21,720 nt of DNA, taken from the IMG/VR virus record IMGVR_UViG_3300009285_002043, positions 1 through 21,720 of that record; one strand, 5' to 3'. A model generated the notes under the pieces. The model was not told where the DNA came from, did no database searches, and worked only from the letters and a program-made list of their open reading frames with translations. The stretch comes from a virus. Of the stretch, positions 3,812 through 20,988 are shown piece by piece (the first letter of the stretch is position 1; each line of letters begins with the position of its first letter). The position numbers and the translations under genes are program-made.

Positions 3812-4257
3812 TCATAGCGATTGATCCCGGAGCACATGGCGCGATTGCCGTATACTACAACGATGGCCGTGTGGGCCGTGTCGAGTGCCATCGGATAGTG
3901 GACGATGGGGATACGCTCAATTTTTTGGTGTCGCAGTCAATGGCCCGAGCGCATGGGCTCGGGATTATGGCCTACGTCGAAAATGTGGGGCAGTATCATC
4001 CCGGCAATAGCGGACCTGCGTCGGTGAAATTCGCTGAGCATTGCGGATTCCTGCGCGGCGTTCTGTTTGCGCTGGCCATCCCCCGGGAAAAGGTCTCGCC
4101 TGCGACGTGGATGAAAGCGCTCGGGACGCTTCCGAAGAACAAGGCCGCGCGCAAGCGCGCGATCAAAGTGGAGATGGCGCAGAGGTATCCGCACCTCGAT
4201 GTTACGCTGGTGAATGCGGACGCGCTCGGAATCCTGACCTGGGCGATGAAACAGTAG
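3799..4257 (+). CDS. RuvC-like Holliday junction resolvase
   Basis: A 152-aa protein with the RNase H-like fold of phage RuvC-type nucleases. It opens with IIAIDPGAHGAIA (Asp9). Glu61 lies in AYVENVGQ, and NADALGILTWA near the end carries Asp141. The family uses such acidic residues to bind two metals and cleave four-way junctions. Here it probably resolves branched DNA before packaging, working with the annealing protein and SSB upstream. ATG 3799 overlaps the previous gene by 13 bases, with AAGGGG ten bases upstream. It is the last gene of this block before a 190-base structured gap. Confidence 0.82.
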   Translation: MLKIIIAIDPGAHGAIAVYYNDGRVGRVECHRIVDDGDTLNFLVSQSMARAHGLGIMAYVENVGQYHPGNSGPASVKFAEHCGFLRGVLFALAIPREKVSPATWMKALGTLPKNKAARKRAIKVEMAQRYPHLDVTLVNADALGILTWAMKQ

Positions 4258-4447
4258 AATGAATGCGGACGCACAATGATAGCGTTGCAGATCTTGCATA
4301 CGCGGTATAGGTGGTATATCACGAGTGATTATCACTCGGTGAATAGCCTACCCATACAAATACTTGTAGGAACGTACCAGCCCGGGTGTAAGTCCGTCAG
4401 TATGACTTACAACGGTAGAAGCGCCACTGTACGATAAAAAGGAGAAA
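4258..4447 (+). promoter_or_regulatory. Structured leader between the resolvase and the next gene
   Basis: This 190-base gap is AT-richer than its surroundings and full of inverted repeats. CGAGTGAT and ATCACTCG at 4322-4338 form a perfect 8-bp palindrome with one central base, a candidate operator. TACAA/TTGTA at 4355-4368 form a hairpin. TGTAAGTC (4387-4394) and GACTTACA (4404-4411) form an 8-bp stem with a 9-base loop. CTACC (4348-4352) can pair with GGTAG (4414-4418) to close both hairpins into a junction. AAAAAGGAG precedes ATG 4448. No consensus promoter is clear; a riboregulator or protein-binding leader is inferred. Confidence 0.5.
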
Positions 4448-4654
4448 ATGATTATGGATCTTATAGCCAAAGACAATACAAAGCCTGGGGTTCAACGGTT
4501 AGCTCCAGACGAAGTATTTAAGCGCTCCTCTGCGATGAAGAAGAGAATTAACGAGTTCCTCTTCGAGGTAGTAAGCCGAGACACGAAGGTCGGTGATCTC
4601 GATGCTGTCGCGAATGCGATGCTTGATTTTTTTTACATTGAATGGGAAAACTAA
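4448..4654 (+). CDS. Hypothetical small protein
   Basis: A 68-aa protein of unknown function, starting at ATG 4448 after AAAAAGGAG. It looks alpha-helical and mildly acidic, ending MLDFFYIEWEN. Its codons are AT-richer than those of the recombination genes, suggesting an accessory gene gained separately. The 137 bases after it hold no gene; they contain a GCGGGC/GCCCGC hairpin just downstream of the stop (about 4670-4691) without a U-tract. Confidence 0.55.
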   Translation: MIMDLIAKDNTKPGVQRLAPDEVFKRSSAMKKRINEFLFEVVSRDTKVGDLDAVANAMLDFFYIEWEN

Positions 4655-4791
4655 ACACTTTTCGCGCTGGCGGGCCTATCACCTGCCCGCAAATAAGACG
4701 GCATAGATGGATCCTCAGAGGTATGTATATAGCAGCCTTCGGCGTCTCGCCTAAAGAATCCTACTGTGCTGGAAGTAAAAAGGAGAATCAA

Positions 4792-4998
4792 ATGGATGAT
4801 ATTGGACATGTTAGTTTCTGGTCTAGGATGTATGCGCTGGTTGCGCAGATGCATGCAGAGGAGGCGGCCATTGCGGGGATGGTTGCGGAGAATCAATTGA
4901 GGTTGTCCAGAGGAGAAGCACTTGCCTACACAGGGGAAGATTTTAATCATCGAGCAAATTGCTTGATGGTACTTGCCGAGTTCCTTGCTAAAATATAA
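4792..4998 (+). CDS. Hypothetical small helical protein
   Basis: A 68-aa protein. I choose ATG 4792 because AAAAAGGAGA lies eight bases upstream, closely matching the ribosome site of the gene at 4448; the longer in-frame start at 4642 has no such site. Residues about 10-45 form a probable amphipathic helix (RMYALVAQMHAEEAAIAGMV). No domain recognised. Confidence 0.55.
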   Translation: MDDIGHVSFWSRMYALVAQMHAEEAAIAGMVAENQLRLSRGEALAYTGEDFNHRANCLMVLAEFLAKI

Positions 4999-5022
4999 TC
5001 AAGGGCACGAGGAGGGTAATCA

Positions 5023-5361
5023 ATGCACAGAGGCAATATAAATAAGCCAAACACCATGGCTGGGCGGCTCTACCGCCTCCTGCAACGCCGCGTCGAGTGG
5101 GATGCGTTCGAGCTCCAAAACGCTTTGCATACTCGGTGTCTCGCGACGCACATTGCGGAAGTGCGATGTCAGCTACGCCCATTGGGCGTAGACGTGGTGT
5201 ACGCGATGGACCGTGGCAGACACGGGACGTATAGGCTCATGCCGTGCCGCTCTTCATCTCGCGAGTTGCCCGCGAGCGTTGTGCGGGTAGAGCATGCAGG
5301 TGTAGAGCAGATGGACTTGGATGGCGTGCCTGTTCCAGAGTCGGAAATGGAGTGGTTGTGA
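5023..5361 (+). CDS. Small winged-helix-like protein
   Basis: A 112-aa protein with AGGAGGG at about 5009-5015 before ATG 5023. Residues about 12-70 (MAGRLYRLLQRRVEWDAFEL through THIAEVRCQLRPLGVDVVYA) follow a winged helix-turn-helix pattern ending in the beta-wing RHGTYRLMP. This arrangement is common in small phage DNA-binding proteins. The acidic C-terminus (DLDGVPVPESEMEWL) is unassigned. The stop overlaps the next ATG (ATGA at 5358-5364 region). Target and role unknown. Confidence 0.55.
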   Translation: MHRGNINKPNTMAGRLYRLLQRRVEWDAFELQNALHTRCLATHIAEVRCQLRPLGVDVVYAMDRGRHGTYRLMPCRSSSRELPASVVRVEHAGVEQMDLDGVPVPESEMEWL

Positions 5362-5516
5362 TGAACACTTTAATCCGGACTTGTGCCGATAGCTATAGTT
5401 ACAGTTATGGCGACGGCAATAGTTACGGCTATGCCTATTATGGTTATGGCAACGGCTATTGGGTGTTGCGGTGGCTGTGTGCGGCCGCATGCGCGACGGT
5501 GAGGGTATCTCTATGA
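5361..5516 (+). CDS. Small Tyr/Gly/Ser-rich repeat peptide
   Basis: A 51-aa ORF starting at ATG 5361, which overlaps the previous stop. Residues 10-34 are a low-complexity run of Tyr alternating with Ser, Gly, Asp and Asn (for example YSYSYGDGNSYGYAYYGYG), followed by a hydrophobic, Cys-containing end. The DNA is a degenerate 6-bp repeat at about 5394-5460. Both ends are ATGA overlaps, so it is probably translated in the operon. It has no recognised function; it could equally be a tolerated repeat. Confidence 0.45.
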   Translation: MNTLIRTCADSYSYSYGDGNSYGYAYYGYGNGYWVLRWLCAAACATVRVSL

Positions 5517-5728
5517 AATGGCAGAATGATCCATGGCAGTCGGTCATAGAGCATGACGGCATTTTTGCCGTGGTCTATCGTGAGGATCGCTGCTGGACGG
5601 GCTATATCCATTGCCCGGATGGGGTGATTGCATCGATAGGAATGTTCCGCTGGCGCTGGTTGGCGAAACGTGCGGCAAAGCGGGCGTTGATAGATGAACT
5701 CAGGAGGGCGAGCAATGAAACTGTATAA
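5513..5728 (+). CDS. Hypothetical small protein
   Basis: A 71-aa protein starting at ATG 5513, which overlaps the preceding stop (ATGA at 5513-5516); the longer in-frame start at 5459 lies inside the repeat ORF. It begins MKWQNDPWQS, has a beta-rich middle (IFAVVYREDRCWTGYIHCPD) and a basic helical C-terminus (RWRWLAKRAAKRALIDELRR). Unknown function. It overlaps the next gene by 14 bases. Confidence 0.55.
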   Translation: MKWQNDPWQSVIEHDGIFAVVYREDRCWTGYIHCPDGVIASIGMFRWRWLAKRAAKRALIDELRRASNETV

Positions 5729-6056
5729 GCGCCGCGCAGACTGTATGCGTTACACCGGCTCGGCGTGGCCTGTTTCCTCAGATGATGGAACGCTATGGGT
5801 CAGCAGCGTCGCCGCCATGCTGTTGCAGATGGACGTGATCGACACGGAGATTTATCAATATGCTGGCGTGTTTGAGGCGATAGTCTGGATTGGTGCAATG
5901 GGCCGGTGGACAATCGTTATGACGACGGGATTTAGTAACGGGGTAATGTCTGTGTCTGCGCACGCGTCATCCACCACGGCGGCACGTGAATACAGTGCGG
6001 CTAAATTCAGACTGACTGGGTGTGGCTACATTGCAAAACAAGCGGAAGCGAGATGA
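5715..6056 (+). CDS. Hypothetical protein
   Basis: A 113-aa protein. ATG 5715 has AGGAGG at 5702-5707. The sequence is rich in small and hydrophobic residues (SSVAAMLLQMDVIDTEIYQY, AIVWIGAMGRWTIVMTTGFS) but has no clear signal peptide or membrane helix. No family recognised. Its TGA at 6054-6056 overlaps ATG 6053. Confidence 0.5.
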   Translation: MKLYKRRADCMRYTGSAWPVSSDDGTLWVSSVAAMLLQMDVIDTEIYQYAGVFEAIVWIGAMGRWTIVMTTGFSNGVMSVSAHASSTTAAREYSAAKFRLTGCGYIAKQAEAR

Positions 6057-6109
6057 TAATGGATGCATCTGTAGGAAAAATTCCCCTGTCGGTGTTCGCT
6101 GTTTCATGA
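6053..6109 (+). CDS. Possible 18-codon coupling ORF
   Basis: ATG 6053 overlaps the stop of the preceding gene, and its own TGA at 6107-6109 overlaps ATG 6106 of the next gene. The 18-residue product begins MIMDASVGKIPL. It bridges two genes by consecutive ATGA junctions, so it may act as a translational relay rather than making a functional peptide. No separate ribosome site is evident. It may be chance. Confidence 0.3.
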   Translation: MIMDASVGKIPLSVFAVS

Positions 6110-6357
6110 CGTGGCCTTCCACTGATGTTGCGTCAGAGCCACAGAGTGAGCTCAACGAGGTGCTCTATGACGAGCCCCACACAATCGACGTGCGCTACCT
6201 CGACGATCTTATAGATGTGTCTTTACAGCTCAGCGCGGGGCTGCTGGAGGGGCGCTATGTGCTGGTCGCCGGGCCTAGCGGCACGGAGGCTGCGCTCGAC
6301 GAAATGCAGGCGGCTATCGAGGAATTGCGGCGGCTGGAGCGGAGGGACTCGCGATGA
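6106..6357 (+). CDS. Hypothetical small acidic protein
   Basis: An 83-aa protein. I prefer ATG 6106 (M-T-W-P-S-T-D) because it overlaps the stop of the 18-codon ORF; the longer start at 6022 would overlap the previous gene by 35 bases. It contains a helical C-terminal half (AALDEMQAAIEELRRLERRD). No domain recognised. The stop overlaps ATG 6354 (ATGA). Confidence 0.5.
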   Translation: MTWPSTDVASEPQSELNEVLYDEPHTIDVRYLDDLIDVSLQLSAGLLEGRYVLVAGPSGTEAALDEMQAAIEELRRLERRDSR

Positions 6358-6554
6358 AATATGCAGTGGTCATCAACGCGGCTTTTAGCTATTCGCTGGG
6401 GGAGGTCGAGGCGGACGATTTGGACGCGGCCTACGCCCGCGCATGGGAGCTTGCCGATATAGTGGGAGAGCCTGAGCTGTGCGAGGCGTGTGCGCAGCGG
6501 CTGTCATACGTTATGATGACCGACGCTCCGATCCTCGTGCCGGTGAACGGATGA
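6354..6554 (+). CDS. Hypothetical small protein
   Basis: A 66-aa protein, translationally coupled to the gene before it by ATGA. It begins with a beta strand (MKYAVVINAAFSYSL), then an acidic helix (DDLDAAYARAWELADIVG) and a Cys pair (CEACAQRL). Last gene of the small-gene chain; the next promoter begins four bases after its stop. Confidence 0.55.
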   Translation: MKYAVVINAAFSYSLGEVEADDLDAAYARAWELADIVGEPELCEACAQRLSYVMMTDAPILVPVNG

Positions 6555-6557
6555 TAA

Positions 6558-6586
6558 TTGACAGCGGCCCGGGTCCGTGGTAGAAT
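6558..6586 (+). promoter_or_regulatory. Consensus sigma-70 promoter before the replication region
   Basis: TTGACA at 6558-6563, a 17-bp spacer and TAGAAT at 6581-6586. The spacer is GC-rich. Transcription should start near 6592-6594. It lies immediately after the small-gene operon and faces the replication initiator, about 340 bp upstream of that gene's start. Confidence 0.75.
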
Positions 6587-6607
6587 GTGGGCGCGAAAGG
6601 ATAGCAT

Positions 6608-6700
6608 CGATGACACACGAGACCGACCCAATTGCGCAGTCAGTGCCCACCACTCGCTGTTCCTTTCGCAAGGCAATTGGGCCGGTCTCTTGTATCATCG
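6608..6700 (+). repeat. Long imperfect inverted repeat (28-bp arms)
   Basis: Arms at 6608-6635 and 6673-6700 are complementary at 25 of 28 positions, with the longest uninterrupted run at CCCAATTGC / GCAATTGGG. In the loop, CCTTTCGC at 6662-6669 is the exact complement of GCGAAAGG at 6593-6600, at the expected 5' end of the transcript, next to the ribosome site of the short ORF. The two pairings could coexist or compete. The combination resembles a regulatory leader or small structured RNA. Confidence 0.6.
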
Positions 6701-6720
6701 GGGATGACCGCCGTGGGTAA
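6610..6720 (+). CDS. Short ORF inside a long inverted repeat
   Basis: A 36-codon ORF beginning ATG 6610, with AAAGGAT at 6597-6603 and a consensus promoter upstream. Its product starts MTHETDPIAQSV and is not similar to anything I recognise. Its codons contain both arms of the inverted repeat at 6608-6700, and its TAA lies in the 5' arm of a possible terminator. It may encode a small protein, or it may be a leader whose translation controls folding of the RNA. Confidence 0.4.
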   Translation: MTHETDPIAQSVPTTRCSFRKAIGPVSCIIGDDRRG

Positions 6721-6760
6721 AGATCCCGCCTTCCTATTTTACCCGGCAGATCATTTTTCT
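6710..6760 (+). terminator. Possible intrinsic terminator or attenuator
   Basis: GCC plus GGGTAAA (6710-6721, with a two-base bulge) pairs with TTTACCC plus GGC (6738-6747). After seven bases comes a TTTTTCTTT tract at 6754-6762. The gap between stem and U-tract is longer than usual, so termination may be partial. It would separate the promoter at 6558 from the initiator gene and could act as an attenuator. Confidence 0.4.
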
Positions 6761-6796
6761 TTACTTTAAGGGGTTCTCTATGGTAGACTATGGGTG

Positions 6797-6895
6797 CAAA
6801 ACGTGAGGTAACCAAACCATGAACGCCAACATTGACCTGCCGGAAGGGGAGAGCCTTACCGCTTGCCTCGCGTTTTGCAACCCCGGCAGGTCAAT
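6797..6895 (+). promoter_or_regulatory. Interleaved inverted repeats in the initiator leader
   Basis: Two long stems share this leader. Stem A: 6797-6811 pairs with 6863-6877; its two non-Watson-Crick positions are both G-U wobbles in RNA. Stem B: ATTGACCTGCCGG at 6831-6843 pairs perfectly with 6883-6895. The order is A5', B5', A3', B3', so the stems either form a pseudoknot or exclude one another. Stem A covers the GAGG site of the short ORF at 6819, and stem B ends 30 bases before the initiator ATG. A translational or transcriptional switch for replication is inferred. Confidence 0.6.
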
Positions 6896-6929
6896 TCCAT
6901 TTTCCAGGTCAGAACGGAGAACGTCATGA
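6819..6929 (+). CDS. 36-codon leader ORF coupled to the replication initiator
   Basis: ATG 6819 runs to a TGA at 6927-6929 that overlaps the initiator start (ATGA at 6926-6929). GAGG at 6805-6808 is a possible ribosome site and is buried in stem A. The product begins MNANIDLPEGES and has no recognised family. Ribosomes translating it would pass through one arm of each stem, so it looks like a leader peptide that controls access to the initiator start. No homologue evidence is available here. Confidence 0.45.
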   Translation: MNANIDLPEGESLTACLAFCNPGRSIPFSRSERRTS

Positions 6930-8248
6930 CCGGACACAGAGACGCAAGATACCGCAAAGTGTCGAGTAGATTTTGGAATGATAGGGACGTTATGCAGTGG
7001 TCGCGAGACGCACGCTACGTGTTCTTGTTTGTCATTACATGTCCCAAGATGACATCGCTCGGGGCAATGCACGAGTCAATTCCAGGCATTGCGGCAATGT
7101 TGCGCGAGTCCGATGACTGGGTAAGGGCCGCGTTGCAGGAGCCTATCAGGAAGGGGGCTGTTGAGATAGATGACTCCGCATGCCTTGTTGTTTTACCGAA
7201 TTTTCTTAAGCACAACAGGCCCGAAAGTCCCAACGTAGTAAGGAGTTGGGCACAGATAGTAGCGGACCTCCCGGAGTGTGACCTACTTGATAAACATATC
7301 GACAACACAGAAGCCTTCCTGGAAGGCTTAGGGGAAGGCTTTGCCAAAGCCTTTCGGGAAGCCTTTAGGGAAGCCTTACCGAAAGCCTTTCGGGAAGCCT
7401 TTAGGGAAGCCTTACCGAAAGGATCTCGATATCCTTTGCCTAATCCCGATCCCGATCCCGATCCCGATCCCGAACTCGATCCCGAAGAATATATTCCGCC
7501 ACCTCCCGCAGACGGGGAGGCTGGCGGGATATCTATTTCGAATGAGGATTCAAGATCGTCCCAGTCAGAGCCTCCCCCAGCAGCCGACCCACTCGGCCCC
7601 TACCCCAAACTCCAGGCTGCTTACGACGGCATCTGGAAGGCCATCCTAAAATGTCCCGAGCACCGTGCCGTAAAAGCCCCCACCCCGAAACAACACCAGG
7701 CGCACCGCCTGGCCCTCGCCCGCCTGGCCAAACTCGACGGCTGGTCCGAGGATGACATTCTCTCGACGCTCCGATGGTTGTTTTCTCCCCGGACCCCTGA
7801 CCCGCAGGCCGCGTTCTGGCGCCAGCAGGTCTACTCCCTCTCAGGCCTCCGGAACGGCAATGATGGGAAATCCAAATTTGCGAAAATCCACACAGCCTAC
7901 CGGTCGGTCCTCGAAAAGAACGAGCCAACGCCGCCAACTATCAGTCCCGAGGAAAAACAGGTAATGGATGAATTAGTCGCACGGAATAGACGTGAACTGT
8001 ACGACCGATTCAACATTAAACTCGACCAGACCAGCGACTTAACCCACGAGGAGGTACACGAGGTCGTCTCAAAAGATCGCTGCTACCAACCCCCGTCGCC
8101 CGAAGAGGCGAGAGCGAACACCCAGCGGGAATTGGATGAATTGATACGGCGGAATCAAAAGGAGGCGTTCGACGCTTGCGGTATCCGACTCGATGCCGCC
8201 GGGCAAATCGTAGACGAGGAGGTGCGCCCAATTGACTGCCACCAATAA
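6926..8248 (+). CDS. Phage replication initiator / replisome organiser
   Basis: A 440-aa protein. I choose ATG 6926, with GGAGA at 6915-6919 and an ATGA overlap with the leader ORF; the longer TTG-initiated reading at 6863 lies within the leader stems. Residues about 8-105 are a winged-helix domain of the phage replication-protein type (RKVSSRFWNDRDVMQWSRDA, then VVLPNFLKHNRPESPN). Residues 129-165 are an (EAFR)-type repeat encoded by 12-bp iterons, followed by a (Asp-Pro) run. A central helical domain (about 225-300) and two related C-terminal repeats (ELVARNRRELYDRFNIKLD and ELIRRNQKEAFDACGIRLD) follow. By analogy with lambda O it probably binds its own gene's iterons and loads the helicase encoded next. 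Confidence 0.78.
   Translation: MTGHRDARYRKVSSRFWNDRDVMQWSRDARYVFLFVITCPKMTSLGAMHESIPGIAAMLRESDDWVRAALQEPIRKGAVEIDDSACLVVLPNFLKHNRPESPNVVRSWAQIVADLPECDLLDKHIDNTEAFLEGLGEGFAKAFREAFREALPKAFREAFREALPKGSRYPLPNPDPDPDPDPELDPEEYIPPPPADGEAGGISISNEDSRSSQSEPPPAADPLGPYPKLQAAYDGIWKAILKCPEHRAVKAPTPKQHQAHRLALARLAKLDGWSEDDILSTLRWLFSPRTPDPQAAFWRQQVYSLSGLRNGNDGKSKFAKIHTAYRSVLEKNEPTPPTISPEEKQVMDELVARNRRELYDRFNIKLDQTSDLTHEEVHEVVSKDRCYQPPSPEEARANTQRELDELIRRNQKEAFDACGIRLDAAGQIVDEEVRPIDCHQ
7311..7496 (+). repeat. Iteron array inside the initiator gene, candidate replication origin
   Basis: Nine AAGCCTT heptamers (or the complement AAGGCTT) start at 7311, 7323, 7335, 7347, 7359, 7371, 7383, 7395 and 7407, exactly 12 bp apart. 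The second and third are inverted, creating palindromes at 7311-7329 and 7335-7353. Two perfect 36-bp tandem copies lie at 7346-7381 and 7382-7417. Then come five TCCCGA hexamers (7444-7473) and the AT palindrome GAATATATTC (7487-7496). Iterons followed by a meltable stretch within the initiator gene is the lambda-ori layout; origin function is inferred. Confidence 0.68.
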
Positions 8249-9611
8249 TCTCCCCCATAACATCGAGCTCGAACGCTCGGTCCTCGGTACAATCATCCGA
8301 GACAACGGCAAATTTCCCGGCGTCCTGAAAATTCTCGGGGATTCTCCCGACGTGTTTTACGACTGGCAAAACAAAGCAGTTTGGCGCGCCATGCTCGCCC
8401 TCGACGAGGAGGGGATGGCAATCGACGAAATGACCCTGTACAGCCGCATCCGCGATGACATAGACGAGGCGCCCGGACTCATTGCGGACCTGTCGTCCTC
8501 CCCGCCAACCTCGTGGCACGCCCTGTACTACGCCCGCGAGGTCTATCGCTACTACATGAGCCGCCGGATCATTGAATTGTCTAGGATGGCCACAGAGGCT
8601 GCCGAACAGCACAGTAGCATAGACACCCATCTCGAAATTCAATCTCGCCTCTCAGAGGCGCTCAGAGAGTCTGGTGGCGATTCTGAGTGTTCCCTTCACG
8701 ACGTGCTTCCCTCGACCGTCGCGCATCTCCGCGCGATCTACGAGGGAACGGAGGCGATGCTCAGCACCGGCATCCCTGCAATCGACAACTACCTTGGCGG
8801 GTTCGAGGCCGGTACCTACGCCCTGCTCGCCGCCCGGCCGTCCGTAGGCAAGACGGCGCTGGCAGTGGCTATCACTCACCATGTCGCCGTGAAAAACAAA
8901 ATCCCCCTGTTGTTCATATCGCTCGAAATGCACCGGGAGCGCATTGCCGAGAGGCTCATGTGCGTCCATTGCGGCGTATCGCCGCAACTCCTTCGACTCC
9001 GCCGGACGGCCGACTTTCTGAAAGCCGAGAGCATGGAAAAACTCGAAGCTACCGCGCACGAAATAGACGCGGTGCCCGTTTACTTCCAGGCGGGGAGCAC
9101 TCTATCCATGGCGCAGATTGCCTCGTGCATCCGCGACCACGTGTGCCGCCACGGCATTCGCCTGGTCATCTGCGATTACATGCAGTTGATCCACCGGACG
9201 CGCGGGCAGAACACCAATACGGAGGTGTCGGAAATCTCGTGGGGCTGGCGCCGCATCACCAATGAGACGGGTATACCCGCCCTCGTTTTATCCCAGCTCA
9301 ATCGCGGCGGTGAGGGCGAGCGTCCACGCGCATCCAATCTCCGAGACTCGGGCAGCCTCGAACAGGATGCCGACGTGGTCCTGCTTATGTGGCGCCAGGA
9401 CGAGTCATCTCAAACGCCCGAGTATTCCCCCGTCACGCTCCGTGTGGAGAAAAACAGGAACGGCGAGACGGGTGAATCTCGTATGATGTTCGACAAAGTA
9501 TCGCAGAGATTTTTCCCGCTCGATGACAGGCAACAGCCGCCGCCTAAGAATGTGTATGCAAACGCCGCGCCCCCGCGAGAGGAGGATGACGACGATGACA
9601 CACCATTTTGA
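8232..9611 (+). CDS. dnaB: Replicative DNA helicase, DnaB family
   Basis: A 459-aa helicase. The start is TTG 8232, preceded by GAGGAGGTG at 8216-8224, overlapping the initiator by 17 bases. The N-terminal DnaB domain (NIELERSVLGTIIRD) spans residues 8-110. The RecA-like motor has Walker A ARPSVGKT at 201-208, LFISLEM at 227-233, Walker B LVICDYMQLI at 311-320 and the KNRNGETG arginine-finger region near 407-414. It unwinds the fork, presumably loaded by the initiator upstream. The C-terminus ends in DDDDDTPF, unusually close to the SSB tip DDIPF. The acidic tail DNA also holds the next gene's ribosome site and start. Confidence 0.93.
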   Translation: MTATNNLPHNIELERSVLGTIIRDNGKFPGVLKILGDSPDVFYDWQNKAVWRAMLALDEEGMAIDEMTLYSRIRDDIDEAPGLIADLSSSPPTSWHALYYAREVYRYYMSRRIIELSRMATEAAEQHSSIDTHLEIQSRLSEALRESGGDSECSLHDVLPSTVAHLRAIYEGTEAMLSTGIPAIDNYLGGFEAGTYALLAARPSVGKTALAVAITHHVAVKNKIPLLFISLEMHRERIAERLMCVHCGVSPQLLRLRRTADFLKAESMEKLEATAHEIDAVPVYFQAGSTLSMAQIASCIRDHVCRHGIRLVICDYMQLIHRTRGQNTNTEVSEISWGWRRITNETGIPALVLSQLNRGGEGERPRASNLRDSGSLEQDADVVLLMWRQDESSQTPEYSPVTLRVEKNRNGETGESRMMFDKVSQRFFPLDDRQQPPPKNVYANAAPPREEDDDDDTPF

Positions 9612-10049: not shown

Positions 10050-10436
10050 GTGGAACTATCCGACGCGCTGAAAATAATCGAACCTATCGAGGCAGAGTGT
10101 CTGCTAGGCCGAGTTCGTCATGTTGCGATGACGCGCAAGATGCAGGAGGCCCTACTCATAATCATCGGGTCCGCTCGCGATGCGCAACAAAAATCCGAGA
10201 CCGATGCTAAGCTCACCAGGATCGACACCTTCATTCCAAATAAATATCCGTATGCGCAGTGTCTGCACGATGTTATTACAACAGGAGTTGCTTGCGGCGT
10301 GAAGTCATGCACGGAGTACGATTGTGAAAACCACCAGTATTTGCGCACAGTATCATCACACAAAAAGCGCCTACCAACCCCGCCGAGCACTCCCGACGAT
10401 CGGTATAGGGGAGAAGAAAGATCCCCGTATGGATAA
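10050..10436 (+). CDS. Hypothetical protein, paralogue of the gene at 10508
   Basis: A 128-aa protein. I choose GTG 10050 because CAGGAG lies at 10036-10041, and because the product then begins VELSDALKIIEPIEAE, aligning with MELSDAMKTIEPVKAA of the gene at 10508. Both continue with a TRKMQEALL / TREMREALL helix. The copies are recognisably duplicated at DNA level near their starts. This longer copy has a unique Cys-containing C-terminus. No family recognised. Confidence 0.6.
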   Translation: MELSDALKIIEPIEAECLLGRVRHVAMTRKMQEALLIIIGSARDAQQKSETDAKLTRIDTFIPNKYPYAQCLHDVITTGVACGVKSCTEYDCENHQYLRTVSSHKKRLPTPPSTPDDRYRGEERSPYG

Positions 10437-10507: not shown

Positions 10508-10696
10508 ATGGAACTATCCGACGCGATGAAAACAATTGAACCAGTCAAAGCCGCGTGTAAACAAAACGGCACCGGCCGCCTCACTATTACCCGCGAGATG
10601 CGCGAGGCGCTACTCGTGGTCATCCACGCAGCCGACGGCCAATATGGCATTGACAGTAAACGCGGAATGTGTGATAATCAAAAAGAAAGGATTTGA
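10508..10696 (+). CDS. Hypothetical small protein, shorter paralogue
   Basis: A 62-aa protein starting at ATG 10508 with AAAGGG about eight bases upstream. It aligns with the first half of the gene at 10050 (MELSDAMKTIEPVKAA; TREMREALLVVIHAA), so one arose by duplication. It lacks the C-terminal half of the longer copy. The 71-base gap between the copies contains no clear gene. Function unknown. Confidence 0.6.
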   Translation: MELSDAMKTIEPVKAACKQNGTGRLTITREMREALLVVIHAADGQYGIDSKRGMCDNQKERI

Positions 10697-10699
10697 CAC

Positions 10700-11107
10700 A
10701 TGAAAAAGAAAATTGCCTCCGACGAATCAATCCTCGACGCCAATCCCGGCGGCAGTCTGGCGGCAGATGACCTGATAGACGCAGCGCCAGACGCCTGCAA
10801 TAGCACTCCCTCCGAACTCGACACCTATTCCGCAGACATGCCCCCGCTCGATGCGACCTGCTTTATCAATCGCCACGGCGGTCTCCGCCCCGATAACTGC
10901 TCTATCTACTGGGTAGAGTGTGGCGAGTTTGAATGCGGACATTACGCGGACGGATCAGTGATCATCCCCGGAGGCGGCCGCGAGCTCACCACCCGCCACT
11001 ACATCGACGGCGCTCGCGTTGTCCACGTCGAGGAGGTCGAGTACCAGGGCGTCGCCTACAATCGCGTCTGGCTTTCCCCCGAGATGCAGGCGCAGGAGGC
11101 GGAGTAG
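10700..11107 (+). CDS. Hypothetical protein
   Basis: A 135-aa acidic protein starting at ATG 10700, with AAAGGA upstream. The first 50 residues look disordered (Asp, Ala, Ser, Pro rich). Residues about 51-130 look folded and beta-rich (CFINRHGGLRPDNCSIYWVE, GARVVHVEEVEYQGVAYNRV). No family recognised. Its end supplies the GGAG ribosome site of the ParB-like gene. Confidence 0.6.
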   Translation: MKKKIASDESILDANPGGSLAADDLIDAAPDACNSTPSELDTYSADMPPLDATCFINRHGGLRPDNCSIYWVECGEFECGHYADGSVIIPGGGRELTTRHYIDGARVVHVEEVEYQGVAYNRVWLSPEMQAQEAE

Positions 11108-11109
11108 CA

Positions 11110-11733
11110 ATGCCCACACCGGCAAAACGGAGAGGACGGCCTCGAAACAAAGGCTCCGGCATACGAGATAGGATTAAGGAGCTTCGTCGCGTGCGCGCTG
11201 GCGATCTTGTTACTAATCCTCAAAACTGGCGGATTCATCCGCAGCACCAGCGCGATGCGCTCAAGGGCCTACTTGCGGAAGTTGGTTATGCCGACGCGCT
11301 TATTGCGCGCGAGCTCGACGATGGACGGCTGATGCTGATCGATGGGCATCTCCGAGCGGAAACGACGCCTGACATGGAAGTGCCGGTGCTCGTGCTCGAC
11401 GTGACGGATAAAGAGGCGCAGATAATTCTCGCAACGCTCGATCCGCTGGCCGAACTCGCAGAGAAAAATGACGGGGCGTTGATTCAGTTGGTCGAAGGAA
11501 TATGCTCGAACAACGATGCCGTGACCGGCTTGTTAAATTCCATCGCCGGAGCCGAAGAACAAGGTGAAGGGAACGCGTTGACGTTTTTTTCTCCCGAAAA
11601 AATTCCCACGATGGCCTGGGTGTTAATCGGAATTCCGGTTTTAAGGTTCGGCGAAATAGCGGCAGACATAGAGCGCCTCTCCAAAATCGAGGGAGTGGTT
11701 AGCGAGACGACGATCAATGATCAAACAAATTGA
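11110..11733 (+). CDS. ParB-like nuclease-fold protein (ParB/Srx superfamily)
   Basis: A 207-aa protein. ATG 11110 has GGAG at 11101-11104; the longer in-frame start at 10933 is a shadow of the previous gene. After a basic N-terminus (KRRGRPRNKGSG), residues about 28-115 match the ParB N-terminal fold: NPQNWRIHPQHQRDALKGLL, then LIDGHLRAET holding the conserved GHxR-type motif, then VPVLVLDVTDKEAQIILATL. In phages this domain often accompanies DNA methyltransferases, and here a methyltransferase-like gene follows with a 17-base overlap. Segregation is unlikely since no ParA is present. Confidence 0.8.
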   Translation: MPTPAKRRGRPRNKGSGIRDRIKELRRVRAGDLVTNPQNWRIHPQHQRDALKGLLAEVGYADALIARELDDGRLMLIDGHLRAETTPDMEVPVLVLDVTDKEAQIILATLDPLAELAEKNDGALIQLVEGICSNNDAVTGLLNSIAGAEEQGEGNALTFFSPEKIPTMAWVLIGIPVLRFGEIAADIERLSKIEGVVSETTINDQTN

Positions 11734-12292
11734 TAATAGCAATCTTCCGGCAAAGCTGAAGCTACGGAGGTATTTTCTTGATCGCTACCATCAAGTGGAT
11801 GGATCGGTTTTAGATTGCTGCGCCGGAGACCGGGTCATATGGTCATCGCTCAAAAAAGAGTATCCACACCTCGTCTATCTCGGCGTCGACCACAGAGACA
11901 ACTACGGGGGGGGTACGGGGCGTCTCAAGGCGAACAGTGTGCGCCTATTAAAAAGTAAATTCATTCCCCAAAACATCATCGACATTGACACGTACGGTAG
12001 CCCGTGGGAGCACTGGGAGGCGCTGCTCTGCAACATCTCGCACCCAACGACCGTATTTCTCACATGTGGCTCAGTGGGCAATATAAGCAATATGTCTAAT
12101 TGCGATAAGCGTGCTCTAGGGCTAACGTTTAAGAGGCTTACCGTGCCCATGGCGCTATATCATCCAGTGTTGTTGTGGGCGGTGGATTTGCATCTCGGCA
12201 AAATTTACGACCATGGTATCGAATTAGTGGAGGCCGCAGAAGCCAGTAGTGGAGGCAACGCCCGGTACATTGGGGTAAGATTGGAGAAATGA
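11717..12292 (+). CDS. SAM-dependent methyltransferase-like protein
   Basis: A 191-aa protein overlapping the ParB-like gene by 17 bases. Residues 31-37 (VLDCCAG) form the SAM-binding glycine loop, GVDHR at 56-60 fits the strand that contacts the ribose, and DIDTYGSPWEHW at 89-100 sits where the catalytic motif lies in Rossmann methyltransferases. The typical DPPY/NPPY motif is replaced by DTYGSPW, so substrate and activity are uncertain. Context suggests nucleic-acid modification. Confidence 0.65.
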   Translation: MIKQIDNSNLPAKLKLRRYFLDRYHQVDGSVLDCCAGDRVIWSSLKKEYPHLVYLGVDHRDNYGGGTGRLKANSVRLLKSKFIPQNIIDIDTYGSPWEHWEALLCNISHPTTVFLTCGSVGNISNMSNCDKRALGLTFKRLTVPMALYHPVLLWAVDLHLGKIYDHGIELVEAAEASSGGNARYIGVRLEK

Positions 12293-13030
12293 ATGAACGT
12301 CGTGTATGAGCCAAGAGGAAGGGCCAGGGAGTATTCGGAGCTTGCCTGTAATCTATTCACTGGATGTTTGCACGGGTGCCATTATTGCTACGCCCCCGCA
12401 ATTCGTAGACAGTCCTTAACGCAATGGTCCTCGAGTCCCGAAGCGCGCAAGGACATAATTGCGCAATTGTCCAAGGACTGCGCGAAGCTGTCTTCGTCTG
12501 GTGAGCACGCAGATTCATGGATCTTGTTTTGTTTTATGACCGACCCCTATCAATCAGACAGCCTCTCTCCCGTAACGCGCGCGGCGCTCCAATGCGTTGG
12601 GCAACATGGACTAAAGGCGCAGGTGCTTACCAAGGGCGGCATGCGCGCATGCAGGGATTTCGACGTGCTGAAGCAATACGGCTTTAAGTTTGGCTCTACG
12701 ATTGTTTTCTTCGATGACGCGAAAAGAGCCGAGTGGGAGCCTGGGGCAAGCCCAATTTTAGATCGTATCGAGGCAGTAAAAGAGGCGCATCGACAGGGCA
12801 TCTATACGTGGGTTAGTATCGAGCCGATCATCGATGCCGACGAGGCGTTAAAAGTGATCGATGCCCTCACCGGTCACGTCGATTTGTGGAAGGTCGGAAA
12901 AATCAATCACAACAAAGCCGTTGAGAGCTCTATCGACTGGGCATCTCTGCTCGGTCGGTTAGAGAAGGCGCTGAAGGGCAATGAGCAAAATTACTACATC
13001 AAAAAAGATCTCCGTGCCTTCGCCGGATAA
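12293..13030 (+). CDS. Radical SAM protein (SplB-like subgroup)
   Basis: A 245-aa protein starting at ATG 12293 immediately after the methyltransferase stop, with GGAGAAA just upstream. It has the radical SAM cluster motif CX3CX2C at Cys25, Cys29, Cys32 (TGCLHGCHYCYAP), which binds the 4Fe-4S cluster that cleaves SAM. FCFMTDPYQ and VLTKGG are further conserved features of the spore-photoproduct-lyase-like group. Its substrate in phages is unknown to me. Gene order (ParB-like, methyltransferase, radical SAM) suggests a DNA or RNA modification cassette. It overlaps the small terminase by 50 bases. Confidence 0.82.
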   Translation: MNVVYEPRGRAREYSELACNLFTGCLHGCHYCYAPAIRRQSLTQWSSSPEARKDIIAQLSKDCAKLSSSGEHADSWILFCFMTDPYQSDSLSPVTRAALQCVGQHGLKAQVLTKGGMRACRDFDVLKQYGFKFGSTIVFFDDAKRAEWEPGASPILDRIEAVKEAHRQGIYTWVSIEPIIDADEALKVIDALTGHVDLWKVGKINHNKAVESSIDWASLLGRLEKALKGNEQNYYIKKDLRAFAG

Positions 13031-16550: not shown

Positions 16551-16800
16551 GTGTACGAGTTTCTCGCGGCATGGCATGGCCTGGCAAGGACCTGGCTTGG
16601 CTTGGCAAGGACTCGGACATGGACCGGGCAACGCAAGGCAAGGGTAGTTGAGTTGAATCGTGGTAGCAGCCAACGCCCCATGGGCGATGCGAGTTTTCGC
16701 GGCATGGACCGGGCGTGGCCGGGCGGGACAAGGGCAGGGCTGGACAAGGGCGGGGCTTGGACGAGGACTAGGCAACGCAAGGCAAGGGAAAGGCAGTTGA
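16551..16800 (+). repeat. Intergenic pentamer repeat element R1 (two units)
   Basis: This gap between portal and the next gene holds two units of a dispersed element. Each starts with a short GAGTTT hairpin (CGAGTTTCTCG at 16556-16566; GCGAGTTTTCGC at 16689-16700), continues as a GGCNN-type 5-bp periodic tract, and ends in an 18-base tail found at 16627-16644 and 16771-16788. Between units lies the hairpin CGCCC-CAT-GGGCG (16674-16686). The gene at 16815 has an open frame through it, but that translation is Arg/Trp/Gly nonsense with no ribosome site. Confidence 0.75.
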
Positions 16801-16814
16801 TAGGAGGGATCTTG

Positions 16815-17087
16815 ATGGCAACGTTCGACTCTAAAATGACAGTGACCGTAACGCCAGAACTGGTCGCGCTCGTGGATCGTATTGTGGCGGCTATCGGCGA
16901 GTTGGCGCAGGTCGTCGATGCTCGGACCTGCCCAGAAGCTTCGTGGTACAGATATGAGCTGAGTGCGGCGCAGCGAGTGGCGCAGTACGAGGAGCAAAAG
17001 GAGAAGGCAAAAGCCGCGAGGCCCGAGCCGGCCGCGCCAGTGTCCCCCTCGCCGTTCTACCCAGGGAGCGGTTTTTTCGATGGATGA
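16815..17087 (+). CDS. Hypothetical small structural-module protein
   Basis: A 90-aa protein starting at ATG 16815 with AGGAGGG at about 16802-16808. Residues 8-40 are a hydrophobic-acidic helix (TVTPELVALVDRIVAAIGEL); the C-terminal third is basic then Pro-rich. It lies between portal and the minor head gene, but no family is recognised. It overlaps the following membrane-protein ORF by 8 bases. Confidence 0.6.
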   Translation: MATFDSKMTVTVTPELVALVDRIVAAIGELAQVVDARTCPEASWYRYELSAAQRVAQYEEQKEKAKAARPEPAAPVSPSPFYPGSGFFDG

Positions 17088-17247: not shown

Positions 17248-19035
17248 GTGGCTGAGGCAATCATCTCGGAAGAGGAACTCGACGCCATGCTCGCATATGC
17301 GTTAGCCGACGCGGGCCTGCGCATTGCAGATATCTCGAAAGCTGACCTCGCTGTGTGGGTGGCTGGCATGATTGACCGCGTGGAGAACGCGGCCAAACTT
17401 ATGGAGGCAGAATATTACTCTCAGATGGCATCGGCTATGACGGGGGCGGCAGACCCGGCGCAAATTGAGGCGGCTCGCGCAATGTGGCGTGACCAGGCGC
17501 GGATACAGGCAAAAACGCTGACGACAAACATGATTCAGGCCGATCTCAAAACACTGTCGCAGACAATTGCGCAGGGGATAAAGGATGGCGCGCACCCATT
17601 CGAGGTGGCGCGGCGGCTTGATATGGTGAAAGGCCTTGACTCACAGCGGGCGGCGGCACTGACCAAAAAGTACGAGTACTGGAAATCACAGGGGCTGTCC
17701 GAGGAAGTGCTCGAAAAGAAACTCAATCGAGAGCGGGAAAGACTCCTTCGCGAGCGGCGCGAAACGATAGCGCGCACTGAGATGCGGCAAGCGCACGCAG
17801 AAGGCGAAATGCAGACGGCTCTTGCTGAGGGCGCAAAGTACAAGGTGTGGCAATCTACAGGCGACGCGCGCGTGAGCGATGAATGCGCGGCGAACGAGGC
17901 TCAAGGACCTATCGACGCAAAGGAGGCTTTTAGTAGCGGAGCACAGCACCCTCCCGCGCATCCGAGCTGTTTAGTGGGTGAAACGGCCGTTTTTGCCCCG
18001 GATAAGATCGCCGCATTTATCGCCACTTACAGAGGCCCTGTATTCGATATTACCACTGCCTGCGGCAGTGGGTTTACCGTCACCGCGAATCACATGCTCG
18101 TGACGCCCAACGGTTTTGTCAAGGCGCAATCTGTCTGCGAGGGTGATTATATACTCTACTGCCCCGTCATTCAGCGGACAGGATTTTGTAGCCCATATAA
18201 TGATCGGCGTCCATCCCGCATTGATCAGGCAATCGAATCGCTTGCGGAATCGCCGGGCGTGTCTATTCGTAGAGTGCCATTGTCCCCCGAATACCTCCAC
18301 GGCGATGGGCGGTTCTTGGATGGCTATATCGACATTGTAGCGCCCAATGGCTTTTTGCGTGGAGACATTAACTCCGCGCCTATTGAGCATGTTGACAAGC
18401 TGTGTTTCGAGAGGACTGATGCCAATTTGCTTGGACTCGATTGTCTGCGCAATTTTGTGTCTATGCTCGTCGCTCTGCGTGACGCCACGGACGGCGGTGT
18501 GGGCATTCGCAGTGAGAGCTCTGCGTTCGTCAGGAGAAAGGCGCTCCATCCGCAGGAAGTTTGCATCGCTTCCGTTGCGTCGGCAAATGCTGTTTTCTCT
18601 GAGGATTCTGGATATAACAGATCTGCTGGTGCAAAAACGCTTAGCAATGCTCAGCTCGGACTCTCCCTTCCCATATCGAAAGATGACAGCTTCGGAGTCA
18701 ATGTCTGTCCGCGAATATTGAAATCTCGGGATGCCGTTGATGCGCAAAACATGATCCACCCAACATCGAGATGTTCCGAGCGCATTCGCAATGTGCTTGG
18801 TCGATTCTCCGGACATATAGCGATTACACGCATTGTCCGGATAGTGCAACGGGAATTTTTTGGGCATGTCTTCGACCTCCATACGTTGAGCACATTTTAT
18901 CACCTAGACGGAGCACTATCAAGCAACTGCAGGTGCTCGGTGAGCTGGATCGCGTCGGACTCTGCGCGTGACAGGGAAAAGGGGCGGGCGGCGCAGCGTG
19001 CTGAGCAGACGGCGGCGGCGCGCGATGGCGAATGA
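17248..19035 (+). CDS. Minor head protein (SPP1 gp7 / Mu F-like) with in-frame intein
   Basis: A 595-codon ORF starting at GTG 17248 (GAGG about ten bases upstream). Residues 1-240 and 561-595 together form a 275-aa head-morphogenesis protein. They join as HPPAHPS / CRCSVSWI, restoring the HPxCRC motif typical of this family, preceded by RTEMRQAHAEG and STGDARVSDECAANE. Residues 241-560 are the intein. The protein is thought to sit at the portal vertex and aid DNA entry or capsid assembly. Splicing is required to restore the motif. A homing endonuclease runs antisense through the insert. Confidence 0.88.
   Translation: MAEAIISEEELDAMLAYALADAGLRIADISKADLAVWVAGMIDRVENAAKLMEAEYYSQMASAMTGAADPAQIEAARAMWRDQARIQAKTLTTNMIQADLKTLSQTIAQGIKDGAHPFEVARRLDMVKGLDSQRAAALTKKYEYWKSQGLSEEVLEKKLNRERERLLRERRETIARTEMRQAHAEGEMQTALAEGAKYKVWQSTGDARVSDECAANEAQGPIDAKEAFSSGAQHPPAHPSCLVGETAVFAPDKIAAFIATYRGPVFDITTACGSGFTVTANHMLVTPNGFVKAQSVCEGDYILYCPVIQRTGFCSPYNDRRPSRIDQAIESLAESPGVSIRRVPLSPEYLHGDGRFLDGYIDIVAPNGFLRGDINSAPIEHVDKLCFERTDANLLGLDCLRNFVSMLVALRDATDGGVGIRSESSAFVRRKALHPQEVCIASVASANAVFSEDSGYNRSAGAKTLSNAQLGLSLPISKDDSFGVNVCPRILKSRDAVDAQNMIHPTSRCSERIRNVLGRFSGHIAITRIVRIVQREFFGHVFDLHTLSTFYHLDGALSSNCRCSVSWIASDSARDREKGRAAQRAEQTAAARDGE
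17971..18867 (-). CDS. Antisense homing endonuclease (Vsr/PD-(D/E)XK-like) nested in the intein
   Basis: A 298-aa protein on the - strand. The start is the ATG at 18865-18867, with GGAGG (- strand) at 18876-18880, eight bases away; a longer reading from 18903 would begin upstream of the predicted transcript start. Residues 16-46 and 66-95 are two resolvase-type HTH segments (STKHIANALGTSRCWVDHVL; SELSIAKRFCTSRSVISRIL). Residues 111-142 resemble the NUMOD3-type DNA-binding motif. Residues 152-250 are a nuclease core: SPLETQLV (Glu154), YNVDIAI (Asp180), IAVEVFGGQWH (Glu191, His198), then AGWTPIIIWA. This is the fold of very-short-patch-repair-like homing endonucleases. The last 35 residues are antisense to the intein N-terminus. 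The TAA stop is antisense to the intein's second codon. Confidence 0.82.
   Translation of the reverse strand: MPKKFPLHYPDNACNRYMSGESTKHIANALGTSRCWVDHVLRINGIPRFQYSRTDIDSEAVIFRYGKGESELSIAKRFCTSRSVISRILRENSICRRNGSDANFLRMERLSPDERRALTANAHTAVRGVTQSDEHRHKIAQTIESKQIGISPLETQLVNMLNRRGVNVSTQKAIGRYNVDIAIQEPPIAVEVFGGQWHSTNRHARRFRKRFDCLINAGWTPIIIWATKSCPLNDGAVEYIITLADRLRLDKTVGRHEHVIRGDGKPTAAGSGNIEYRASVSGDKCGDLIRGKNGRFTH
18894..18922 (-). promoter_or_regulatory. Promoter of the antisense homing endonuclease
   Basis: On the - strand: TTGATA (18922-18917), a 17-bp spacer, TAAAAT (18899-18894), with TGA before the -10 forming an extended -10 element. Five of six bases match consensus at both boxes. The start point would be near 18887, then GGAGG at 18880-18876 and ATG at 18867. 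The -35 box begins five bases inside the intein end, so the whole transcription unit moves with the intein. Confidence 0.7.
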
Positions 19036-19270
19036 GTTTACCCGGCTCGGCCTGGCCGGGCTCGACGGGGCGAGGACTGGGCATGGCATGGCTCGGGCAA
19101 GGCCCGGACTCGGCAGCGCAAGGCAAGGGTAGTTGAGTTGAATTGAACAGTAGCCAGCGCCCCATGGGCGATGCGAGTTTGTCGTGGCGCGGACCGGGCG
19201 GGACCGAACGGGGCTAGGCGGGACAAGGGCACGGACTTGGCGTGGCAAGGCGTGGTAGTAGTTGAATTGT
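19033..19270 (+). repeat. Intergenic pentamer repeat element R2 (two units)
   Basis: Begins at the TGA stop of the minor head gene (TGAGTTT at 19033-19039). It contains a GGC-rich 5-bp periodic tract, a tail at 19112 onward nearly identical to that of R1, the hairpin CGCCC-CAT-GGGCG at 19158-19170, a second GAGTTT head, and a second tract. A 24-base stretch at 19226-19249 is identical to 20930-20953 in R4. No gene is visible in 19036-19335. Confidence 0.75.
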
Positions 19271-19926: not shown

Positions 19927-20121
19927 GTTTCTCGGCGCATGGCTCGGCCGGGCAAGCCAAGACGGGGCCAGGACGCAGATCGGGCAACGCAAGGCAAGGG
20001 TAGTTTAATAGACACGACGCAGCGGCCAACGCCCACGCGGGCGATGCGAGTTTCTCGGGGCCGGGCGGGGCTCGGCACGGCCGGGCAGGGCTCGGCAAGA
20101 CTGGGACCTGGCAACGCAAGG
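19924..20121 (+). repeat. Intergenic pentamer repeat element R3 (two units)
   Basis: Starts at the TGA stop of the preceding gene (TGAGTTTCTCGG at 19924-19935). The 18-base tail is identical to R1 at 19983-20000. The hairpin is CGCCC-ACGC-GGGCG (20030-20043): the stem is kept while the loop differs from R1 and R2. A second GAGTTTCTCGGGGC head, a GGC tract and a partial tail up to 20121 follow. AAAAGGAG then leads to the ATG at 20141. Confidence 0.75.
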
Positions 20122-20869: not shown

Positions 20870-20959
20870 CAGGTAGCAGCCGGAGCGTTTTTCGAGGCCG
20901 GACAGGGCCCGGCCCGGCCTGGACTGGGCAGGGCACGGACTTGGCGTGGCAAGTCAAGG
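20870..20959 (+). repeat. Intergenic pentamer repeat element R4 (one unit)
   Basis: A single, more degenerate unit: a GAGCGTTTTTCGAGG head at about 20883-20897, a GGCCC/GGGC tract, then a 24-base stretch at 20930-20953 identical to part of R2. It ends where a possible promoter begins (20960). No gene is visible. Confidence 0.65.
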
Positions 20960-20988
20960 TTGACATATTGTCCCCAATAGCGTACATT
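20960..20988 (+). promoter_or_regulatory. Possible promoter with a small palindrome in the spacer
   Basis: TTGACA at 20960-20965, a 17-bp spacer and TACATT at 20983-20988 (four of six). TATTG/CAATA arms lie in the spacer at 20966-20979 and could be an operator. The start point would fall at about 20995, leaving almost no leader before ATG 21001, so the gene just downstream could not use its GAGGTGG site. I treat it as tentative. Confidence 0.35.

Follow-up and report, generated by a model that had tools for sequence, protein, structure and literature searches.

In the repY/repZ leader of the IncI-alpha plasmid ColIb-P9 and of related I-complex plasmids, a pseudoknot forms between a loop and the Shine-Dalgarno (SD) sequence. 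In this system (repBA), according to excerpts of PMC10286972 and a title cited in PMC10724649, a short leader ORF is translated upstream of the replication initiator gene and coupled to it, and the pseudoknot decides whether the initiator is translated. Excerpts of other sources describe four further relevant cases. STAXI RNAs are tandem pseudoknots located near genes for Ssb, topoisomerase, integrase, and antirestriction proteins, and their function is unknown (PMC2864571). In the aapA3, hok, and MS2 maturation leaders, an early hairpin, which in aapA3 hides an SD, gives way to a more stable fold that forms later (PMC6733600). The T4 protein gp32 binds a pseudoknot located 5' of the ribosome site on its own mRNA (PMC535899), and the putRNA of phage HK022, about 70 nt long, exists in two copies, with putL at the start of the early transcript (PMC9378689).

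The locus analyzed here belongs to a virus record of 21,720 bases (hereafter, the window), which includes a phage replication module. Upstream of its replication initiator gene lie stems in the interleaved order A-B-A'-B', an element that we also found in other phages. The element is real and recurs as a leader with interleaved stems, fused to a promoter, in front of phage replication initiators, and it is probably a new RNA family; the original prediction of an RNA-level element controlling the initiator is in this respect supported. The system closest in logic is represented by the rep leaders of IncI plasmids, which combine a leader ORF, a pseudoknot, and an initiator; in the window, a coupling of the leader ORF to the initiator is plausible. 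However, the plasmid leaders need an antisense RNA, and an antisense promoter was not found here; the plasmid pseudoknot joins a loop to the SD, whereas the phage modules consist of long interleaved stems placed at +1; lastly, in the other four phages (rather than plasmids) the leader ORF is either absent or three codons long. The closest system in arrangement is STAXI, which is included in Rfam 15 and is likewise made up of tandem pseudoknot-type units beside DNA-handling genes, the knotting being putative in our case. Nevertheless, in a search of the window and of the four other loci at E<=10, neither the STAXI nor the c4 model matched, no UUCG tetraloop was seen in the loops of the phage modules, and every unit is preceded by a promoter of its own, with its predicted start at +1.

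The aapA3, hok, and MS2 leaders are precedents for the exchange of an early fold for a later one, which is predicted here, but the gene is unrelated, there is no toxin, and the interleaved stems are partly able to coexist. As in T4 gene 32, a putative pseudoknot immediately precedes the ribosome site for a phage replication protein. The T4 operator, however, comprises a knot of about 28 nt with UUAAA repeats behind it, and neither feature was seen in the modules. The put elements resemble them in being promoter-proximal, about 70 nt long, and present in two copies; in contrast, they are formed by adjacent, side-by-side stem-loops with a conserved sequence, whereas the phage modules have interleaved stems and differing arms. 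Rfam gave no match for the element, with no known aptamer of a metabolite riboswitch at threshold, and the alternative terminator hairpin with U-tract expected of an intrinsic transcription attenuator was not found at B', either by terminator prediction (window and L042) or by reading for a U-tract (L087, L180, and L185). No description of an interleaved-stem initiator leader was found in the open-licence literature, as judged by titles and abstract openings.

Two interleaved modules in front of the initiator gene

The replication module of the window comprises a RecT-like annealing protein, an exonuclease, an SSB, a RuvC-like resolvase, a DnaD-like initiator, and DnaB. The initiator (6926-8248, plus strand; 440 aa) has a DnaD-like N-terminal domain and matches PHROG 25711 (4.6e-21) and PHROG 1701, a DnaD-like helicase loader (8.4e-10); the DnaB helicase gene (8232-9611) follows. 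When used as single queries, neither the initiator nor DnaB retrieved relatives, and alignment queries were needed.

Immediately upstream of the initiator (module 2, plus strand), arm A (6795-6811) pairs with arm A' (6863-6879), and arm B (6831-6843) pairs with arm B' (6883-6895), which begins 3 nt past A'. Stem A had originally been described as 15 pairs including two G-U; its location and the two G-U pairs hold, but the stem actually extends over 17 contiguous pairs, and 6792-6793 can also pair with 6881-6882 past one mismatch. Stem B consists, as proposed, of 13 perfect Watson-Crick pairs. Also in keeping with the original prediction, the GAGG (6805-6808) serving a 36-codon leader ORF (ORF2, 6819-6929) sits in arm A, where pairing with A' would mask it, and the TGA of ORF2 overlaps the initiator ATG at 6926 (ATGA). 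The initiator frame is -1 relative to that of ORF2; a frameshift reading was dropped, as no slippery heptamer was seen by eye. The start region of the initiator, with its SD (GGAG, 6916-6919), is predicted to lie in a hairpin of its own (about 6902-6933, plus strand), and the predicted fold of 6780-6960 has z = -2.9. The transcript would start with arm A, since this arm begins five bases past a -10-like TAGACT having TTTACT 18 bases upstream (promoter P2, 6760-6789, plus strand; 8 of 12 consensus matches), which shares TGGTAGAMTRTGGGYGCRAAA with the promoter described below.

Two hundred bases upstream, the analysis revealed a second A-B-A'-B' module with its own promoter (module 1, 6593-6700, plus strand), which was absent from the original prediction. 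Promoter P1 (6558-6586; TTGACA-17-TAGAAT with an extended -10) has 11 of 12 consensus matches plus the TG; only 0.05% of random positions score as high. Arm A1 (6593-6601), which embeds an SD-like AAAGGA, lies at the predicted transcription start, six bases past the -10, and forms nine pairs with A1' (6661-6669); arm B1 (6608-6635; 28 nt) is 89% complementary to B1' (6673-6700). The A-to-A' start distance (68) and the A'-B' gap (three bases) are the same in both modules. The contiguous 9+9 pairing of module 1 taken alone is at chance level (about one expected in shuffles), and our call therefore relies on promoter P1, on the 28-base, 89% B1 repeat, and on a 21-base promoter/start motif common to both modules, which has just these two matches in the window (0.01 expected). 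Module 1 also contains a putative coding frame of 36 codons (ORF1, 6610-6720, plus strand), whose product has no PHROG match; ORF1 and ORF2 have the same length but unrelated sequences. A predicted hairpin followed by a T-rich stretch (6701-6760, plus strand) might represent a terminator-like end of RNA 1, although a pattern scan gives just a shorter stem (6713-6729).

The interleaved arrangement, in which the stems must either exclude each other or form a knot, was confirmed and is well beyond chance. The window was shuffled 60 times (first-order), and stems were measured in effective pairs, with G-U pairs subtracted. Interleaved arrangements in which each stem has at least 10 effective pairs occur with a mean of 0.083 per 21.7 kb in these shuffles, and single stems of at least 13 with a mean of 0.17; in module 2, both stems reach 13. 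The window's interleaved pair (score 28) ranks top in 1.0 Mb comprising the loci of initiator homologues and the window, both strands. When initiator upstream regions were scored with one rule (84 regions, one hand-picked locus per contig, leaving out near-copies and loci with <200 nt upstream), 4 of 84 reached at least 24, and none of 1680 shuffles did; the values were 30 for L185, 28 for the window, 25 for L087, 24 for L042, and 18 for both L180 and L023.

Some high-scoring regions were not counted as modules. The one in L023 is a tRNA-end repeat. In L163, the high score comes from a short repeat cluster: positions 2027-2158 hold GTCTGCCTG repeats in both orientations that form very strong interleaved stems, an unrelated repeat element. 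L091/L129 was set aside because its stems are a perfect inverted repeat adjacent to the end of a tRNA; in L091, the repeat (2761-2841) has 27 bases, adjoins a tRNA-like end, and probably marks an attachment-site region. L085, L044, L031, L028/L029, and other high scorers, many of them within coding sequence, were judged unrelated. Upstream of the initiator of Tenacibaculum phage JQ (L004, 1645-1729), A/B-like interleaved stems (score 20) are followed by a T-run after B', possibly an attenuator-like cousin.

Recurrence, promoter position, and covariation

A search with an alignment of the initiator N-terminus yielded 80 viral loci, and a scan with a second alignment added L180 and L185. The original prediction had proposed to look for the pattern in related phages, and there it was indeed found: eight interleaved modules occur in five phages (the window and four uncultivated ones), each upstream of the same kind of gene, the initiator, or of its operon. 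Two copies are present in three of the five, that is, in the window, in L042 (directly upstream of the initiator), and in its relative L087, while L180 and L185 have one module each. In each of the five phages, B' either touches the SD of the downstream gene or precedes it by no more than about 20 nt.

What the leader might encode differs from phage to phage. In L042 and L087, arm A provides a purine-rich SD for three-codon ORFs (AUG-N-N-UGA), whereas no leader ORF is convincing in L180 and L185, so the lengths across the five are 36, 3, 3, none, and none; an SD in arm A or at its edge, followed by an AUG, is found only in both window modules and in the second modules of L042 and L087. The stop of the leader ORF overlaps or abuts the initiator start in the window but not in L042, L087, or L185; in L180, the module is followed by an ORF of 68 aa, and this ORF overlaps the initiator gene. 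The arm sequences differ among all modules, even between the two of one phage, with little primary sequence conservation across the five. A tRNA-like reading of the first L042 module was discarded, as no tRNA was found.

Arm A starts 5-8 bases past the best -10 in all eight modules. Their promoter scores add up to 68, whereas random positions average 40, and none of 200000 draws was as high; the distance and spacing limits were set after the modules had been seen, with the control positions scored by the same rule, and for module 1 of L087 the one of two A stems lying behind a promoter was chosen.

Homologues with unpaired substitutions in both arms, which had been named at the outset as evidence against the element, were not seen. 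L180 and L185 are the best-matched pair; their MAFFT alignment, for which structure was not used, shows standard pairing at all 12 positions of A in both sequences (seven unchanged, one with a one-sided change, and four with two-sided changes), whereas slid controls pair at 33-46%. With two sequences only, shuffling gives a weak control, 36 of 500 shuffles reaching the L180/L185 value. The two phages share an identical 21-nt block at the A'-B' junction, beside A'. Between L042 and L087, one base pair is gone from both arms of A, as judged by reading. A wobble test of the strand counted 12 G-U versus 6 A-C mismatches (P = 0.12), which is not proof that the RNA of this strand acts. This design recurs before the same type of gene with its letters changed and its pairing kept, and for this reason we consider it likely to be a new kind of control RNA.

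The distribution of the element is patchy. It is absent from the closest initiator relatives of the window (L006-L025), and on a tree of 74 initiators, many forks of which are unresolved, its presence needs at least four changes; the element may have moved, been lost frequently, or originated several times. Four initiator relatives came from one scan of bacterial genomes, none with modules; loci neighbouring RecT gave no new modules, and the exact promoter-start pattern had no match in viral contigs. The L180/L185 block had nine matches in 398 genomes at <=2 mismatches, similar to a reversed-pattern control, and at the eight loci derived from these matches the best A stem had <=5 effective pairs in every case. 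No convincing matches to the L180 and L185 leaders were obtained with blastn against phage records.

Folding order and possible modes of action

The folding of growing transcripts was computed at equilibrium and without pseudoknots. The probability of A is 0.94-0.99 when A' has just been transcribed, in all eight modules; 40 nt past B', A has fallen to <=0.35 in seven of eight, and B, in the registers tested, is >=0.61 in six of eight. Module 1 of L087 is the exception, as it retains A; in L180, which has two options for the B register, no B forms in the given one, and A is lost to a bulged B register. The two states have similar energies in the window: for the leader up to five bases past B', the energy is -33.3 kcal/mol with A forced and -37.5 with B forced, and the ensemble including downstream sequence gives -64.1 and -63.5, respectively. 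According to a crude length estimate, both full stems fit together in six of the eight modules, the exceptions being module 1 of the window and the second module of L087. With A formed, the initiator start is more open in L042, L087, and L185, unchanged in the window, and less open in L180. Since A forms first and is lost later, yet both stems often fit, the element would be either a metastable switch or a pseudoknot built in that order; the folding model predicts an early hairpin that is later replaced, and this hairpin would mask an SD in both window modules and in the second modules of L042 and L087.

The reading that we prefer is that these modules are a family of promoter-fused, cis-acting RNA leaders controlling the phage replication initiator, a proposal that in our opinion has an even chance of being correct. 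The 5' end of the RNA would be arm A, placed at +1. With A' transcribed 53-68 nt later, the 5' end would snap into hairpin A; B' would follow, in most modules a few bases on, and its partner B lies in the loop of A, so that B:B' might either knot onto A or displace it as the more stable fold. Displacement would free the 5' end and, in the window, also the SD of the leader ORF. The early state would accordingly be A, with 5' end and leader SD closed, and the late state B or the pseudoknot. In the late state, ribosomes of the window phage would translate the 36-codon ORF, melt the hairpin at the initiator start, and re-initiate on the initiator; such translational coupling is plausible in the window, given the ATGA overlap and the predicted hairpin around the initiator start, which would be melted by a ribosome translating ORF2. 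It may also be that a stem of 11-17 pairs is kinetically trapped and B never displaces A. Computation shows the stems, their recurrence, where the promoter lies, covariation in one pair of phages, and the predicted order of folding; we infer that the RNA is produced, that it assumes these states in the cell, and that they influence initiator synthesis. The candidate outputs are leader translation, 5'-end protection, and the sensing of a protein or ligand.

A more specific version, which we advance only tentatively, considers the modules as promoter-locked RNA timers, in which a metastable 5' hairpin is opened or locked by B after a set delay, metering when the initiator is made, with the free-standing upstream copy acting as a decoy that titrates any factor bound by the leader. 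The control of the first replication protein determines when a phage commits its DNA. If true, an RNA family with starts exactly at the promoter, two interleaved stems kept by compensatory changes, and occurrences at separate places on the initiator tree would represent a mode of timing phage replication that is not on record, and the element would offer a compact natural case for studying co-transcriptional RNA folding.

Different forces might have shaped the same arrangement. The modules might be static pseudoknot operators, in which A and B form together and a bound protein (e.g., the initiator itself) or ligand blocks ribosome entry downstream. The position of B', near or touching the downstream SD in all five phages, the fit of both stems in six of eight modules by crude lengths, and the T4 precedent, where excerpts of the source place gp32 on a pseudoknot 5' of the ribosome site (PMC535899), speak for this idea, which we regard as rather doubtful in view of the low sequence conservation across the five phages and of the two modules where the stems do not fit. 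It is also conceivable, but unlikely, that hairpin A at +1 slows mRNA decay because it keeps the start of the mRNA double-stranded, with B setting how long it stays closed. Indeed, A follows the -10 by 5-8 nt in all eight modules, beyond what SD masking needs, and an SD with its ATG is found in arm A only in some; protection alone, however, leaves the interleaved B unexplained. A put-like antitermination, with a promoter-proximal RNA binding RNA polymerase, would fit the start at +1, the terminator-like hairpin between modules 1 and 2 in the window and L042, and the two copies in three of five phages, which recall putL/putR of HK022. Against it stand the putRNAs themselves, two side-by-side stem-loops sharing sequence, whereas here the stems are interleaved and the arms differ within one phage, and we hold it to be very improbable.

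The two remaining possibilities misfit the family because conservation of the ORF, a terminator behind B', and long complementarity between modules are all lacking. The attenuation switch originally envisaged, in which the position of the ribosome on the 36-codon ORF picks the stem, agrees with the window, where the SD is in arm A, B is within the ORF, and the stop overlaps the initiator start. Yet no terminator is predicted over or after B' in the window or L042, and by reading no U-tract follows B' in L087, L180, or L185, so classical transcription attenuation would be left without its terminator, and the ORF length is not conserved. Leader-peptide attenuation thus appears very unlikely; the opening of stems by ribosome movement is not supported as a general mechanism, the 36-codon ORF being found only in the window, but might be a local elaboration there. 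Antisense control, in which RNA 1 would act in trans on leader 2 in the manner of c4 RNA or of plasmid copy-number RNAs, is the least credible. Positions 6716-6758 are partly complementary to 6828-6860, and this 3' part pairs better than 98% of shuffles; nonetheless, the longest duplex between modules 1 and 2 has seven effective pairs in all three two-module phages, and Rfam gave no c4 match. For the whole RNAs, the duplex energy in the window does not surpass that of shuffles (0.685), and in L042 it is weak (0.12). Furthermore, there is no nearby minus-strand promoter, the single promoter-like site of that strand in 4200-8300 being at 4825. On the basis of duplex lengths and energies, antisense pairing between modules was rejected.

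Other features of the window

Within the initiator gene, at 7311-7430, seven overlapping units like AAGCCTTTCGGG follow each other with 12-base spacing. In phage lambda, an iteron origin lies inside the replication gene O, and by analogy these units are likely the iterons of a replication origin. Farther downstream, the 50-base starts of two adjacent small genes (10051-10100 and 10509-10558) are 82% identical, and between the replication and packaging genes (10933-13030) a ParB/methyltransferase-like ORF, a small ORF, and a radical SAM protein (PA0069-like) are arranged in a row. A Mu F-like minor head protein gene (17248-19035, plus strand) is apparently interrupted by an intein, the Intein_splicing match being weak; inside it, on the opposite strand (17971-18903, minus), a 310-aa ORF encodes HTH motifs and an MTES_1575/DUF559/Vsr-like nuclease domain, and is perhaps an antisense-nested homing endonuclease. 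Lastly, a GC-rich repeat family (GGACxxGGGCxxxGCAAGGCAAGG) is located between late genes, at 16581-16830, 19067-19256, 19969-20121, and 20900-20960.
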